A stretch of DNA of 56,148 nt from positions 1 through 56,148 of the forward strand of contig DYLS01000012.1 in the NCBI GenBank assembly GCA_020721965.1, read 5' to 3'. The position numbers and the translations under genes are program-made. The DNA comes from Blastopirellula marina. GTDB lineage: Bacteria > Planctomycetota > Planctomycetia > Pirellulales > Thermoguttaceae. Shown in pieces: positions 47,859-53,408 of the stretch (the stretch's first letter is position 1; each line of letters opens with the position of its first letter). The notes under the pieces are model-generated. The model saw only the letters and a list, made by a program, of their open reading frames with translations. It searched no databases and had not been told where the DNA came from.

Positions 47859-47987
47859 CAGATCGCCGTCCGAAGCAACCAGGGCGCGGAGCACAACGAG
47901 GGTCGGGAGGATAGCGGGAGGCTTTCCGTCGTGGCGAATCGCCGTCTGGATCAAGCCTTGTGGGCTGGGAAGCACAATAATACGAGG

Positions 47988-48336
47988 TAAGCGAGGGTGT
48001 CCGGGAATTAGATTTCGCAGTTTACCCAGATTCGCAACCGCACAGATACGCGAAACCGTGCGGCCAAATGTCCGAACACCATTGAAAACAAGAGGTTACG
48101 ACTGTCAAATTCCCGGACACCCTCAGGTAAGCGTTCACGGCTGAGCTATAACGAAAAAGATTTGTGAAACAACGAGGGTTAGAGGTTTTAGAGGTTCCTC
48201 GAGTGTGCAACGGGATGTCATTTCGACGAGCGTCAGCGAGGAGAAATCTTACCCTGTCGATAAGATTTCTCGCTTCGCTCGAAATGACAAGAGGATGAGC
48301 CATTTTACAGTGACGAAAACCCCTGTGAACGATCAC
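47988..48336 (+). mobile_element. Family 1 MITE-like element, copy C (interrupted)
   Basis: The left end GTAAGC (47988-47993) is separated from its continuation GTTCACGG (48133 on) by a family 3 element plus its 8-bp target duplication. Without the insertion the element is about 210 bp. Its right end is CCTGTGAACGATCAC, the complement of GTGATCGTTCACAGG. A perfect 11-bp inverted repeat (GAGAAATCTTA at 48241-48251, TAAGATTTCTC at 48261-48271) lies inside. The flanks AATACGAG and GATATGAA match at 5 of 8 bases, so the target duplication is worn. It aligns well with copy A. Confidence 0.8.
47994..48124 (-). mobile_element. Family 3 MITE-like element, copy A
   Basis: This 131-bp element begins GAGGGTGTCCGGGAATTAG and ends AATTCCCGGACACCCTC, that is, 17-bp terminal inverted repeats. 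A perfect 8-bp direct repeat AGGTAAGC flanks it (47986-47993 and 48125-48132). In reverse complement it matches the copy at 52076-52207 over its full length with roughly 85-90 percent identity by eye. It is inserted inside a family 1 element, so family 1 was there first. No coding frame. Confidence 0.9.
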
Positions 48337-48353
48337 GATATGAAGGAGTCGGC

Positions 48354-50612
48354 GTGACGCCGCGACTGACGCTCCATCCCATCGCCGACAGTTATGTGAT
48401 CGCCGTGGGCATCATAACGGCGATGCTAATCGTATGGTATCGCTTGCCGGTGCGAGCCGCGATGGATGCGAAAAAACGCCGCGTTTTGACGGCCCTTCGC
48501 TGCGGCATGCTCCTGGTCCTACTTTTCATCCTATTAAGGCCCACCTTGGAATACGTCACGATTTCACGCCAAGCGGCTACGGTCGTGATGCTGTTCGATC
48601 ACTCGCGCAGCATGAGCGTCCCCGACGAACTGAGCGGCCTGTCGCGGTACGAGGCGATGGTGCGTGCGGTGTCTCGATCCGGACCGCAATTGCGGAAGCT
48701 TGCCGGAGCGGTCGAGATCAAGGCGTTTGCCTTCGACGCGGAGACGACGGCTTTGCCGGTTCGCGACGGAATCCCCGAACTGCCACCCGCTCCGGAGGGA
48801 TCGCAAACGGCGATCGGCGCCGCCCTGGAGGACGTGCTCCGTTTGGAAAGCGGCAAACGCGTGCTGGCCCTGCTGATGTTTGGCGACGGCGCACAACGGG
48901 CACTCTATCCCCGCGATGCGATTCCCCAGCCCTCCGCCATGCGCATGAAAAGCCTCGATCAGCCGCTATTCGCCTTTCGTTTCGGGAAAGCGCGAGGGGC
49001 CTCGGAAGCCCGAGATTTGGCACTCGAAGGGCTGTCTTGCCCCGACCGGGTTTTCGTGAAGAACGAATTGCCGATCAGAGTGCGTATGCACGCGGTGGGC
49101 TATGCAGGGCAGGCTCTTACCGCGCAGCTTCTTTATGAGACCGAGCCAGGCAAAATGGAAGTTGTGGCCTCGCAGGAGATTCTGGTTTCTGGACCGGATG
49201 AGCGGGTCCCCGTGCAATTTCAATACGTTCCAAAAACGGCCGGCGAACACAAGATCGCAATTGCCGTTGCGCCGCAACCGGGTGAGAGCAGCGTCTTGAA
49301 CAACGAACAGAGCACGGTCGTGAACGTGCTGGAAGGCGGTATTCGCGTCCTGTACCTTGAGGGATCTCTCCGCGTAGAACAACGATTCCTGCGGCGGTCC
49401 CTGGACTCTTCGCCGGACATCCAAACCGATTTTCTGAGGCTGACCGCGTTGCCCGACGGTAGCGAGCCAAGCGATTTGGCCGATCGCTTCCGGCCGGGGA
49501 AATACGATGTCTATATCTTTGGCGACGTCGATGCGACGTCCTTCCGAAGTGAATGGCTCACGGAAGTCGCGACCGCGGTTTTGAATGGGGCAGGCCTGTT
49601 GATGCTCGGGGGATTCCAAAGCTTCGGCGCCGGTGGTTACGCCGAGACGGCTCTGGCGGAACTACTACCGGTCCGTTTGAATCGGTTGGAGCGACAAGAG
49701 CCCGGCTCGCCAATCCGTGCTGACTTGCATATCCCCGGCCACTTGCCAATCGTCCCCACCGAAATTGGACTCCAGCACTTCGCCTTATCCTTGGCACCAT
49801 CACCCGACGACTCGCGGCGGCTCTGGGCCGCGCTTCCACCGTTGGATGGAGCCAATCGCCTTGGCGGCGTAAAGCCCGGCGCACTGGTTCTGGCGGAAGA
49901 CGGTCAAAAAGATCCGATCTTGGTGGTGCAATTCTATGGCAACGGCAGGACGGCGGCGTTTGCAGCCGATTCCACTTGGCGATGGTGGATGCACGGAGAG
50001 GAACGGATTCACAAGCGATTCTGGCGTCAATTGGTCCTTTGGTTGGCCGGTCAAGACGAATCGCGCCGTCCCAGCGTCTGGATTCGCCTTGCTCAACGGC
50101 GGATTCTGTTGGGAGAAACACTCGAGTTCGAAGCTGGGGCCAACGACGATGCCGGTGAACCGATTGCCAATGCGGTGCTGGAGGGGTCGGTTCGGATGCC
50201 TGATGGTCGCATCGAAAACGTAACCTTCTCCAAGCAGGAGGGACGCGTCACGGCCCGCTTTCATCGGACCGAACAGGCAGGAGACTACGTGCTGACGGTA
50301 CGGGCTGCGGTCGATGGCCGAAATTTGGGTAACCGCGAGACCCGGTTCCTGGTAGTCGCCCGAGATTTGGAAATGGATCAACCTGCCGCCGACCCCACGC
50401 TGCTTGCGTCATTAGCGTCCACTACGGGAGGGGAAGTCTTGGCGTCGGAACAGCTCCCGGAACTCCTCGATCGTCTCTTAGAACAAACCAAGGACCTGGA
50501 GGTTCCGATCATCACACGCCGCACTCTCTGGGACACGTGGCCCGTCTTGTTTGCGTTCACAATGCTCGCTACCTGGGAATGGTTTTTGCGCAAACGGTGG
50601 GGATTGGTTTGA
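48354..50612 (+). CDS. Membrane protein with vWA and glutamine-amidotransferase-like domains
   Basis: The protein has 752 residues. The start is a GTG at 48354 with AAGGAG about 7 bases upstream. Two N-terminal membrane helices (ADSYVIAVGIITAMLIVWY; GMLLVLLFILLRPTLEYV) are followed by a vWA domain with a complete D-x-S-x-S motif (MLFDHSRSM). A class I glutamine amidotransferase-like domain lies at about 330-560 (IRVLYLEGSLRVEQRFLRRSLDS, GAGLLMLGGFQSFGAGGYAETALAELLPV) without the catalytic Cys, as in this family. The last helix (WPVLFAFTMLATWEWFLRKRW) anchors the C-terminus. It completes the MoxR-DUF58-BatA-GATase module typical of planctomycetes; the role is thought to be in envelope stress or assembly. 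Confidence 0.9.
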   Translation: MTPRLTLHPIADSYVIAVGIITAMLIVWYRLPVRAAMDAKKRRVLTALRCGMLLVLLFILLRPTLEYVTISRQAATVVMLFDHSRSMSVPDELSGLSRYEAMVRAVSRSGPQLRKLAGAVEIKAFAFDAETTALPVRDGIPELPPAPEGSQTAIGAALEDVLRLESGKRVLALLMFGDGAQRALYPRDAIPQPSAMRMKSLDQPLFAFRFGKARGASEARDLALEGLSCPDRVFVKNELPIRVRMHAVGYAGQALTAQLLYETEPGKMEVVASQEILVSGPDERVPVQFQYVPKTAGEHKIAIAVAPQPGESSVLNNEQSTVVNVLEGGIRVLYLEGSLRVEQRFLRRSLDSSPDIQTDFLRLTALPDGSEPSDLADRFRPGKYDVYIFGDVDATSFRSEWLTEVATAVLNGAGLLMLGGFQSFGAGGYAETALAELLPVRLNRLERQEPGSPIRADLHIPGHLPIVPTEIGLQHFALSLAPSPDDSRRLWAALPPLDGANRLGGVKPGALVLAEDGQKDPILVVQFYGNGRTAAFAADSTWRWWMHGEERIHKRFWRQLVLWLAGQDESRRPSVWIRLAQRRILLGETLEFEAGANDDAGEPIANAVLEGSVRMPDGRIENVTFSKQEGRVTARFHRTEQAGDYVLTVRAAVDGRNLGNRETRFLVVARDLEMDQPAADPTLLASLASTTGGEVLASEQLPELLDRLLEQTKDLEVPIITRRTLWDTWPVLFAFTMLATWEWFLRKRWGLV

Positions 50613-50656
50613 GATAGCCAAATAGGGCGGTGCAATATCGCGGACCGGGGACGGAG

Positions 50657-51943
50657 ATGAGCCACTTTGAAGGGACGGATCACGGTGACGGACCTCGGGA
50701 ACCAGCCCCCGAAGTCCCCCAGCTTACTGCCGGGTACCGGCTGGCAATCGTCGGCCGGTTGGCTGCGATGTCCCATTCGGCGGCTGCCGCCCTGCTGCGG
50801 CAAGGCGGGATATCCGTAGTGGATATAAATGATCCTTCCACGGAAATCTTGGTGCTAGGTGAATGGGATTTTTCCTGGACGGATTCGCCCAATTTGCAAC
50901 AGCTTTTGGCACGCGCTGGGACGCCCGCTCGTGATAAAGAACCGCGGATTCTCACGGAGTCGGAGCTTTGGCAATCCCTGGGCTTGCTGGACGAAGCGAC
51001 GGCAACGCGCCGCTGGTTCACACCGGCTATGCTGGCCGACTTGATTGGAGTTCCGGCCTCGGTCGTCCGCCGATGGTATCGCCAGGGACTGCTGAGGGCA
51101 GCCCGCGTGGTGTACCGTTTGCCCTATTTCGACTATGCGGAGGCCGCGGCCGCCAGGCGTCTGACGCTGCTGCGAGAAGAGGGTTTTTCGCTCGATGCGA
51201 TTACCCGCCGTGTGCGAGATCTCCTGACTCTTGTCCCCGCAGTCGAACGCAGCTTGAGCCAGATCACCGTGGTTGCGGTCGGCCGTCGGATTCTACTCCG
51301 CCGTGGAACGGCCCTGGTCGATCCCACCGGACAACTACATTTTGATTTTGAGATGGAGCCGGAGGCCCAGGCCCCAGAGTCGGACGATGCACCAGCCATC
51401 GTGTCTCTCCCTGCTCACATCCTTGATCCTAGCGCGACGCCCCCGCCCGAACCTGCCTCAACCTTGTTGGCCCGTGCAGAGGCGTGCGACGAAGAAGGGC
51501 GACTTGCGGAGGCCGTAGAAAACTATCGTGCGGCGATTGTTGCGGGAGGTCTGTCGGCTGAGGTTTGCTTTCAGTTGGCGGACGTGCTCTATCGCCTCGG
51601 CGATCTGTCCGGTGCCCGCGAGCGGTTCTGGATGGCGGTGGAACTGGATGATGGTTTCGTCGAGGCCCGCGTCAATCTCGGGGCAGTCCTGACGGAACTC
51701 GGCGAGTTTGAGTTAGCCGCAGCGGCCTTTCAAGGGGCGATCGACTTGCTTCCCGAATACCCGGATGCTCATTACCTCCTGGCGAAGTTGCTGCGCGGAA
51801 TGGGCCGCGATGAGGAAGCTCTCCACCATTGGCGCGAATTCGTCCGGCTGGCTCCACACAGTCCCTGGGTCGAAGCAAGCGACTGGGGAGAGAGCACGGA
51901 ACAAGCCGCATACCGTGATTGGACGGATCCCGCCGATCACTAG
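50657..51943 (+). CDS. BRCT-like, MerR-type HTH and TPR fusion protein
   Basis: The protein has 428 residues from the ATG at 50657 (a GTG at 50630 is also open). Residues about 22-95 read like a BRCT domain (YRLAIVGRLAAMSHSAAAALLRQGGISVVDINDPSTEILVLGE). Residues about 120-210 hold a MerR-type winged helix (WFTPAMLADLIGVPASVVRRWYRQGLLRAARVVYRLPYFDYAEAAAARRLTLLREEGFSLDAITRRV). Residues about 275-420 are TPR repeats (LLARAEACDEEGRLAEAVENYRAAI, ADVLYRLGDLSGARERFWMAVELD, GAVLTELGEFELAAAAFQGAIDLLP). It is probably a DNA-binding regulator whose TPR part contacts a partner. It lies 44 bp after the MoxR module and may be its last gene. Confidence 0.78.
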   Translation: MSHFEGTDHGDGPREPAPEVPQLTAGYRLAIVGRLAAMSHSAAAALLRQGGISVVDINDPSTEILVLGEWDFSWTDSPNLQQLLARAGTPARDKEPRILTESELWQSLGLLDEATATRRWFTPAMLADLIGVPASVVRRWYRQGLLRAARVVYRLPYFDYAEAAAARRLTLLREEGFSLDAITRRVRDLLTLVPAVERSLSQITVVAVGRRILLRRGTALVDPTGQLHFDFEMEPEAQAPESDDAPAIVSLPAHILDPSATPPPEPASTLLARAEACDEEGRLAEAVENYRAAIVAGGLSAEVCFQLADVLYRLGDLSGARERFWMAVELDDGFVEARVNLGAVLTELGEFELAAAAFQGAIDLLPEYPDAHYLLAKLLRGMGRDEEALHHWREFVRLAPHSPWVEASDWGESTEQAAYRDWTDPADH

Positions 51944-52075
51944 CACTACAGCGCATGGGCCGCCTCATCGCATGATGTGCCCAGCAACTGTTGCGAGCCG
52001 TGCTGTCCGATCACCACAAGATGGCAAGCCAGGCAACCAATCCTGCGCGGTGATACTCGGCACGCTCAAATAAAC

Positions 52076-52207
52076 GAGGGTGTCCGGGAATTAGACAGTC
52101 GTAACCTCTTGTTTTCAATGGTGTTCGGACATTTGCCCGCACGGTTTCGCGTATCTGTGCGGTTGAGAATCGGGGTAATCTAAGGAATCTGCTTCCCGGA
52201 CACCGTC
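52076..52207 (+). mobile_element. Family 3 MITE-like element, copy B
   Basis: This 132-bp element begins GAGGGTGTCCGGGAATTAG and ends TTCCCGGACACCGTC. A perfect 8-bp direct repeat AAATAAAC flanks it (52068-52075 and 52208-52215). It is homologous to the complement of 47994-48124. The right end provides two bases of the TGA stop of the minus-strand gene starting at 53051. The target sites of the two copies are similar (AGGTAAGC and AAATAAAC). No coding frame. Confidence 0.92.
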
Positions 52208-53051
52208 AAATAAACGTAAAGCCCTTTTGACGTGGAGTTTGCCGGTGCGGGGTGGGAATGTATTCCACGCTGCCGGGCGATCGATTTTGCGGGTACAATT
52301 GCAGCAACTGCACGATCTCGTCCGGCATGTCGGTGCGGACTGGAAGCCCCAGCCCCAACGCGTGATCGGCCGTAAGCGGATAGTCGTGCGTCCAGTTCCC
52401 TTCGGAAAGAAGTCTAGCGATTTCGTCAGCTTTCTCCGCCGACACTTTGTCGGACAGTAGCTCCCGAACGGCATCCCGAACCTGATTGATGGCCTTTTCC
52501 GCAATGTCTGCCATGATCAGCGTTTCGTCGTCGATATCATTAGCCTCCTTACGACTCAAGACGCGAAGGATGGAAGCAGCGGGGCGGTTGCCAAGCTGAG
52601 GATCGACCGGTCCGAGTACAGCGTGACGGCACATGACGATTTCATCGGCGGCGAGCGCGATGAGGGTGCCTCCTGACATGGCATAATGTGGGACGAATAC
52701 CGTAACCTTGCCCGGATGGGCGTGAATGGCCTTGGCAATCTGAAGCGACGCCAGCACCAACCCCCCCGGTGTGTGCAAAATCAGGTCCAATGGCACTTCC
52801 TGGTCGGTGAGATGGATCGCTCGGATCACCTCTTCCGAGTCGTTGATATCGATGTATCGCACCAACGGAAAACCGAGCAGACTCATGGTCTCCTGGCGGT
52901 GAATGAGCACGATCACGCGGGATTGGCGATTCCTTTCGATCCTCCCGATCATCCTTTGCCGCGCCACCTCCAACAACTTACGGCTTAAAACCGGTTGTAG
53001 GGCTGAAATCATCAGAAATATCCAGAAGAAATCCATGACATTCATGAACAT
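52206..53051 (-). CDS. ClpP-like membrane serine protease (SDH_sah family)
   Basis: The protein has 281 residues. The ATG at 53051 has AAGGAG about 5 bases upstream, so a 49-residue longer frame is rejected. The N-terminus has a membrane helix (MDFFWIFLMISALQPVL) followed by basic residues. The body is the serine dehydrogenase proteinase family (PF01972, ClpP/SppA-like): VIVLIHRQE, LDLILHTPGG at 89-97, and PHYAMSGGTLIALAADEIVM with the likely nucleophile Ser126. The active site would face the cytoplasm. The stop codon is formed at the edge of a family 3 element insertion. The next gene downstream of its promoter region on the same strand is a rhomboid protease 358 bp away. Confidence 0.9.
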   Translation of the reverse strand: MFMNVMDFFWIFLMISALQPVLSRKLLEVARQRMIGRIERNRQSRVIVLIHRQETMSLLGFPLVRYIDINDSEEVIRAIHLTDQEVPLDLILHTPGGLVLASLQIAKAIHAHPGKVTVFVPHYAMSGGTLIALAADEIVMCRHAVLGPVDPQLGNRPAASILRVLSRKEANDIDDETLIMADIAEKAINQVRDAVRELLSDKVSAEKADEIARLLSEGNWTHDYPLTADHALGLGLPVRTDMPDEIVQLLQLYPQNRSPGSVEYIPTPHRQTPRQKGFTFI

Positions 53052-53408
53052 TTGTCTCCTTAAGAGTTTAACAAAAAGTAACCGTTTGCGGAGCATTGGA
53101 ATTGGAGGCGTCACGCCGCGGCGACCACACCACCTTGTGGCCCCCTTGAGCCATTGGCGGCTACGAGCCAAGCGTTTTTGCCACTCGGCTCGTGTCACCG
53201 CAGCATTCTACGCGTCGTTTCCCACAGGAACGGTTTCTACAGGTAAACGTTCACGCCCAACTTATGTCGCGAGGCGATAGACTCCATCACCGCAAGATGT
53301 TGAGCAGGGTTTCCCTGTCGCTGACGCGTTCGGACAGAGAACGATCACACACGAACCCCGTGAACGATTACTTCTATAGAAACTGCTCAATCCGCTGCAC
53401 GACAATAC
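53052..53408. other. Intergenic region with a short family 1 element
   Basis: This 357-bp spacer between the rhomboid gene and the ClpP-like gene, both on the minus strand, holds the element at 53243-53371. Near the ClpP-like start the minus strand reads TTTTTGTTAAACTCTTAAGGAG, an AT-rich leader with the ribosome site. No gene is seen. Confidence 0.6.
53243..53371 (+). mobile_element. Family 1-type short element, copy D
   Basis: This 129-bp element has ends GTAAACGTTCACG and CGTGAACGATTAC, inverted repeats matching at 12 of 13 positions and the same as the family 1 ends. It is flanked by TTCTACAG (53235-53242) and TTCTATAG (53372-53379), a target duplication with one change. The interior is shorter and only loosely similar to the other copies, so it is an internally deleted or diverged relative. 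No coding frame. Confidence 0.72.

Follow-up and report, generated by a model that had tools for sequence, protein, structure and literature searches.

A Miniature Transposable Element Family of Blastopirellula marina and Its Probable Insertion Sequence Partner in Related Genomes

Two related segments in a 56,148-nucleotide stretch of Blastopirellula marina DNA (contig DYLS01000012.1 of assembly GCA_020721965.1, hereafter the window) are copies of a miniature inverted-repeat transposable element (MITE) family, ordinary in kind. MITEs move in trans by means of the transposase of an insertion sequence (IS), and comparisons of ends, targets and proteins lead us to propose, with a probability of about 0.87, that the mover of this family is a DDE_Tnp_1 enzyme of ~355-360 aa encoded by a group of 1.18-kb ISs that we found in related genomes. 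In the proposed mechanism, the transposase supplied in trans would bind the 17-bp inverted ends (GAGGGTGTCCGGGAATT), excise or copy the element and join it to a TA-centered target close to RRWTAWYY with an 8-bp stagger, the repair of which would yield the 8-bp target duplication. An observation made on two copies is thereby extended to a defined mobile family with a target rule, a range of divergence and a candidate mover.

The Window Copies and Their Target Duplications

Copy A lies on the plus strand (47993-48124) and copy B on the minus strand (52076-52207). Both measure 132 bp, they are 92% identical to each other, and the element contains no transposase gene of its own. The initial annotation had the opposite orientations and the bounds of copy B right, but placed the start of copy A 1 bp too far in, at 47994. 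It also ascribed 17-bp inverted ends to both copies, which holds exactly for copy A (17/17 positions), whereas the ends of copy B match at 14/17, its other end being GACGGTGTCCGGGAAGC. The perfect and mutually different 8-bp duplications that it described were recovered at both insertions: AGGTAAGC flanks copy A (47985-47992 and 48125-48132, where the latter overlaps a second dispersed repeat at its end motif), and AAATAAAC flanks copy B (52068-52075 and 52208-52215). At the right junction of copy B lies the stop codon (52206-52208) of a minus-strand open reading frame (ORF; 52206-53198), a TGA to which the duplication contributes one base and the end of the element the GA. As the site without the element would also read TGA, the insertion of copy B did not change the protein encoded by this ORF. 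The ORFs that overlap the MITE (104 and 129 aa) extend beyond the element into its flanks.

A Dispersed Family with a Preferred Target

The B. marina assembly (G000; 4.95 Mb in 380 contigs, 97% complete) contains 21 full or near-full copies of the MITE distributed over 20 contigs and 91-100% identical to copy A. They differ from their consensus by 0.8-9.8% and from one another by 8.4% on average, a divergence indicating that amplification was not very recent. Once the bounds of one damaged copy (L020) had been set by hand, a perfect 8-mer duplication in strict register was counted at 13/21 copies, against 2/420 in a control pairing left and right flanks taken from different copies. Allowing the ends to slip by up to 4 bp raises the count to 15/21 (control 2/420), and tolerating one mismatch in addition raises it to 20/21 (control 6/420), L015 being the sole copy without a target duplication. 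Both perfect matches in the control stem from L004 (C308) and L020 (C247), which occupy separate places with the identical target AATTATCT. Duplications so far above the control bear out the initial proposal of a transposed, non-autonomous element; the finding named at the time as fatal to it, a genome search in which most copies lack duplications, is contradicted by the 15 perfect ones.

A review describes bacterial MITEs as elements of less than 500 bp with inverted ends of ~4-30 bp and direct repeats, mostly intergenic and present in tens of copies (PMC10969869). The family described here combines a length below 500 bp, inverted ends, flanking duplications, dispersed copies and the lack of its own transposase, and its ends are common to autonomous elements through the loci L118, L106, L088 and L105 and the genome G017, all outside this genome. 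According to a screen of ORFs by codon usage, 18/21 copies lie outside predicted ORFs, copy B and L003 sit at the very end of one, and one copy lies within a doubtful ORF of 88 aa. Known bacterial MITEs such as QMITE2 of Coxiella, Chunjie and MITEAba12 have other ends, another interior and hosts of another phylum. The term "planctomycet" is absent from the main text of the same review, and no paper describing this MITE or the IS discussed below turned up in searches of open-licence PMC papers.

The targets share a near-palindromic core close to RRWTAWYY. With the sites oriented as copy A, position 1 of the 8-mer is A or G in 19/21, position 3 is T or A in 20/21, position 4 is T in 19/21, position 5 is A in 15/21 and position 8 is C or T in 20/21; this table includes L007, L019, L020 and L021 in a shifted register and L015, which lacks a duplication. 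After re-registering L007, L019 and L020, TA occupies positions 4-5 of 14/21 sites. The preference suspected from the two window sites, A-x-x-TAA-x-C, agrees with this core.

In two congeners, the element is missing from the syntenic places. G086 retains the convergent gene pair that flanks copy B, and no element is visible between the matched pieces, which are separated by 77 bp instead of 334. In G088, on a single contig, ~127 bp separate the genes flanking copy A (one gene end being extrapolated by 8 residues) as compared with 495 bp in the window, which leaves no room for copy A or for the neighboring repeat. The region gave no match in G087, the fourth genome of the genus.

Autonomous Insertion Sequences with the Same Ends

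A 15-bp end pattern (up to one mismatch) occurs in 49 of the 119 genomes of the family, and its reversed version in 13/119, so part of the single end matches are due to chance whereas most of the excess is not. The transposase was reached by following ends devoid of a close mate. L118, found in a genome of another family of the same order (G265), is a complete IS of 1183 bp with ends matching at 17/17 and 16/17 positions, the duplication AACTAGTT identical on both sides (8/8) and an intact ORF of 358 aa. L106 (G029) is an IS of 1192 bp with ends matching at 15/17 and 14/17 and an ORF of 358 aa; its left flank is lost at the contig start, and its right flank, GATTATTT, agrees with the target core. 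The L106 protein is 100% identical over 358 residues to the product of one locus of JAKPGL010000105.1, from a Planctomycetota metagenome-assembled genome. Finally, in L088 (G018) and L105 (G020) a 17-bp end without mismatches adjoins a homologous transposase that is truncated. Homologues of the transposase were detected in 7/119 genomes of the family by sequence and in 8/119 by a three-member profile, and class-wide in 6/397 genomes at E ≤ 1e-20, most of those seen across the searches being broken. In a plasmid collection, the single match was a distant one from Spirosoma, 28.9% identical and covering 51% of the query.

The strongest link between the IS group and the MITE targets comes from G017, in which 15 contigs (5 left and 10 right ends) break off ~80-87 bp into one IS, a sign of a multi-copy element impassable for the assembler. 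The end pattern has 21 matches in this genome: these 15 contig ends, one deletion derivative of 321 bp (C124) and 5 unrelated places. Four of the five left ends could be paired with a right end that bears the identical 8-mer in the expected orientation, C45 remaining mateless, and four mated ends occurred in 2/20,000 draws of a simulation from the site model. All 11 independent IS sites carry TA at positions 4-5. Together, the mates and the TA core indicate that this IS generates 8-bp duplications at targets of the MITE type. The transposase gene itself is represented in this assembly only by the C124 derivative and by C-terminal stubs of 22 residues on five contigs, and it is through these that the ends can be tied to the enzyme. 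The derivative (L114) is an internally deleted IS whose ends have 4 mismatches each and whose duplication matches at 4/8 positions. G017 also illustrates that a draft assembly can retain the ends of a multi-copy IS yet lose its transposase gene.

Three intact transposases are available for comparison: L118, L106 and L119, the latter two being 45 and 43% identical to the first. Invariant D-K-S, D..YD and E-P-F stretches occur in all three, a pattern that a DDE enzyme should show, the putative assignment of the triad being our own. L106 (48.2 bits) and L118 (34.9) exceed the 23-bit cut-off of the Pfam model DDE_Tnp_1 (PF01609), and L119 (19.3) falls below it. In NCBIfam, IS1182 (NF033551) is the best match of all three (51.1, 37.6 and 51.9 bits), far under a cut-off of 270 and over parts only of a 488-position model, the transposases here measuring 353-358 aa. 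Scores against the IS5 models (NF033580 and NF033579) are 21.5, 14.6 and 16.4 bits for cut-offs of 110 and 140, and the match to the IS982 model is likewise far under its cut-off. The Pfam and NCBIfam models of IS1595, ISL3 and IS256 matched none of the transposases at E ≤ 1. These three families, which make 8-bp duplications, were the ones initially suggested for a mover then considered unknown; they are superseded by the candidate DDE_Tnp_1 group. The ISH1 group of the IS5 family also gives 8-bp duplications with a TTA-like core, a likeness that concerns the target. A single-sequence structure model of the transposase reached a mean predicted local distance difference test (pLDDT) score of 40.6, too low for use, and the 20 sequence matches among solved structures, all antibody chains (E 0.03-0.91), were taken as chance.

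The leaders of L106, L088, L118, L119 and L121, from the left end to the transposase start, differ in sequence, and fold predictions on the native sequences alone place a long hairpin in each of them, at roughly one position directly before the transposase start. Such a hairpin may shield the transposase gene from outside transcription.

We tentatively suggest, at slightly less than even odds, that the partner is an IS group unnamed in the searched libraries, of ~1.18 kb, with GAGGGTGTCCGGGAATT ends, RRWTAWYY duplications, a DDE_Tnp_1 transposase of 355-360 aa and a leader hairpin, which would have repeatedly spawned MITEs of unrelated interiors across this planctomycete family, some of them outliving their mover. 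The shared ends can aid the annotation of both the ISs and the MITEs.

Weighing the Proposed Mover and the Alternatives

Several observations count against the assignment of the MITE to this IS group, among them the state of the B. marina assembly. The L106 protein found no match there at E ≤ 10, the three-member profile returned nothing at 0.001 while the same search was positive in 8/119 genomes, and no lone MITE end lies at any contig edge, unlike in G017. The MITE and the IS have only the 17-bp ends in common, their interiors being not visibly alike, and the TA core is looser at MITE sites (14/21) than at the IS sites of G017 (11/11). Two loci depart from the pattern. The intact 353-aa homologue L119 (G185) shows 4 mismatches at one end and 3 at the other and lacks a duplication (4/8), and was not counted as support for shared ends. 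In L121 (G495), the end differs at 1 position and the flank, AAAGAGAT, is devoid of the TA core. Moreover, the gaps at the syntenic places differ from those of the window by 257 and ~368 bp, more than the 140 bp of one element plus its duplication. Given this excess and the distance between the congeners (45-73% protein identity in the flanking genes and 68-76% DNA identity), these are syntenic rather than base-exact empty sites.

The absence of the proposed transposase from the host assembly lends some credit to a mover from another family with 8-bp duplications (IS1595, ISL3, IS256 or other) whose ends are similar by chance, as do a MITE interior without visible descent from the ISs found and an own-genome transposase survey that covered PF01609 alone. 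We nevertheless consider this unlikely. The ends (17/17 in L118), the duplication length and the target core of the IS group all agree with those of the MITE, and a search of the assembly for the 13-bp end (up to one mismatch), blind to transposase family, gave 40 matches, 34 of them within the 21 copies and 6 single ones inside contigs, with no lone pair of ends enclosing a longer element. A functional origin is far less probable. The segments would then be a structured regulatory RNA or another functional repeat rather than transposed DNA, and indeed single copies fold better than shuffled sequence on each strand of A and B (z -3.4 to -5.2), and homologues of 131-137 bp exist in four genomes beyond this one, those of a congener and of three further genera. 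However, Rfam has no match to the MITE, and 26 copies (21 from this genome and 5 from relatives) show no conserved fold, their consensus reaching -3.84 kcal/mol and a covariation term of 0.09, with 4/15 pairs changed on both sides in one or more sequences. Since the duplications and the syntenic gaps show insertion, this reading, which the initial annotation had itself raised against transposition, was rejected. Spread of a palindromic repeat by a repetitive extragenic palindromic (REP)-type tyrosine transposase is the least probable of all: the second repeat beside copy A could be of the REP type, but such spread is not known to leave target duplications of the kind found perfect at 15/21 copies.

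Mobilization by the DDE_Tnp_1 IS group is thus the preferred reading, and the MITE family of B. marina is best read as an orphan, its mover either lost or residing in the few percent of the genome left unassembled, because the assembly offers no such transposase, no ends at contig edges and only broken DDE_Tnp_1 pieces without such ends. These pieces, on C372 and C72, are the only PF01609 matches in the genome; in this survey, restricted to that model, none lies on the contig of the window, in line with the initial remark that the window holds no transposase. As candidates for the mover they were discarded, for they yielded one end-like site with 5 mismatches and a best E of 0.068 to L106 and L118. 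We infer that the family is presently inactive in this genome.

Related MITEs and Neighboring Repeats

Searches with the MITE, which scored up to 7 candidates per genome, were positive in at least 8 of the 119 family genomes, the matches of G016 and G041 covering barely more than an end-like stretch. Homologues of 131-137 bp were found in G086, G030 (two), G020 and G002, with 73-81% identity in the search; the match spans almost the whole length in G086 and in one G030 copy and 43-77 bases in the others, and all of them could be aligned end to end. A scan for end pairs at one locus from each of 30 of the genomes with the 15-bp end returned seven pairs. Among these, L087 (149 bp) and L077 (152 bp) have the same ends around other interiors, with the duplication AATTATTT (8/8) in the former and one of 7/8 in the latter, and L098 has one of 6/8, the remaining L081, L086, L093 and L104 matching at only 2 or 3 of 8 positions. 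The ends of the L081 pair are 981 bp apart and probably paired by chance. It seems that several MITE lineages used such ends. The IS as a source of the MITE interior was also considered, and a by-eye comparison of ~12 bases past the ends was unconvincing.

BOX, RUP and SPRITE repeats cluster and insert into each other, according to the review cited above (PMC10969869). Copy A is adjoined by a second dispersed repeat of ~206 bp (48127-48333) with the end motif GTAACCGTTCACGG and dozens of matches in G000. Whole or in pieces, it occurs within 1.5 kb on either side of 9/21 MITE loci. At L105/L090 (G020:C42:1-316), its motif CCGTGAACGGTTACGG precedes the transposase piece, about where the homology ends, and the IS may have been broken there by this second repeat. 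Elements or ends of the same type also enclose other hairpin-rich interiors at L070 (G022:C148; TTTAGCCCGCCGTG...) and L065 (G016:C418; GTAGGAGGCGACTCC...), which look like other repeats captured by such ends.

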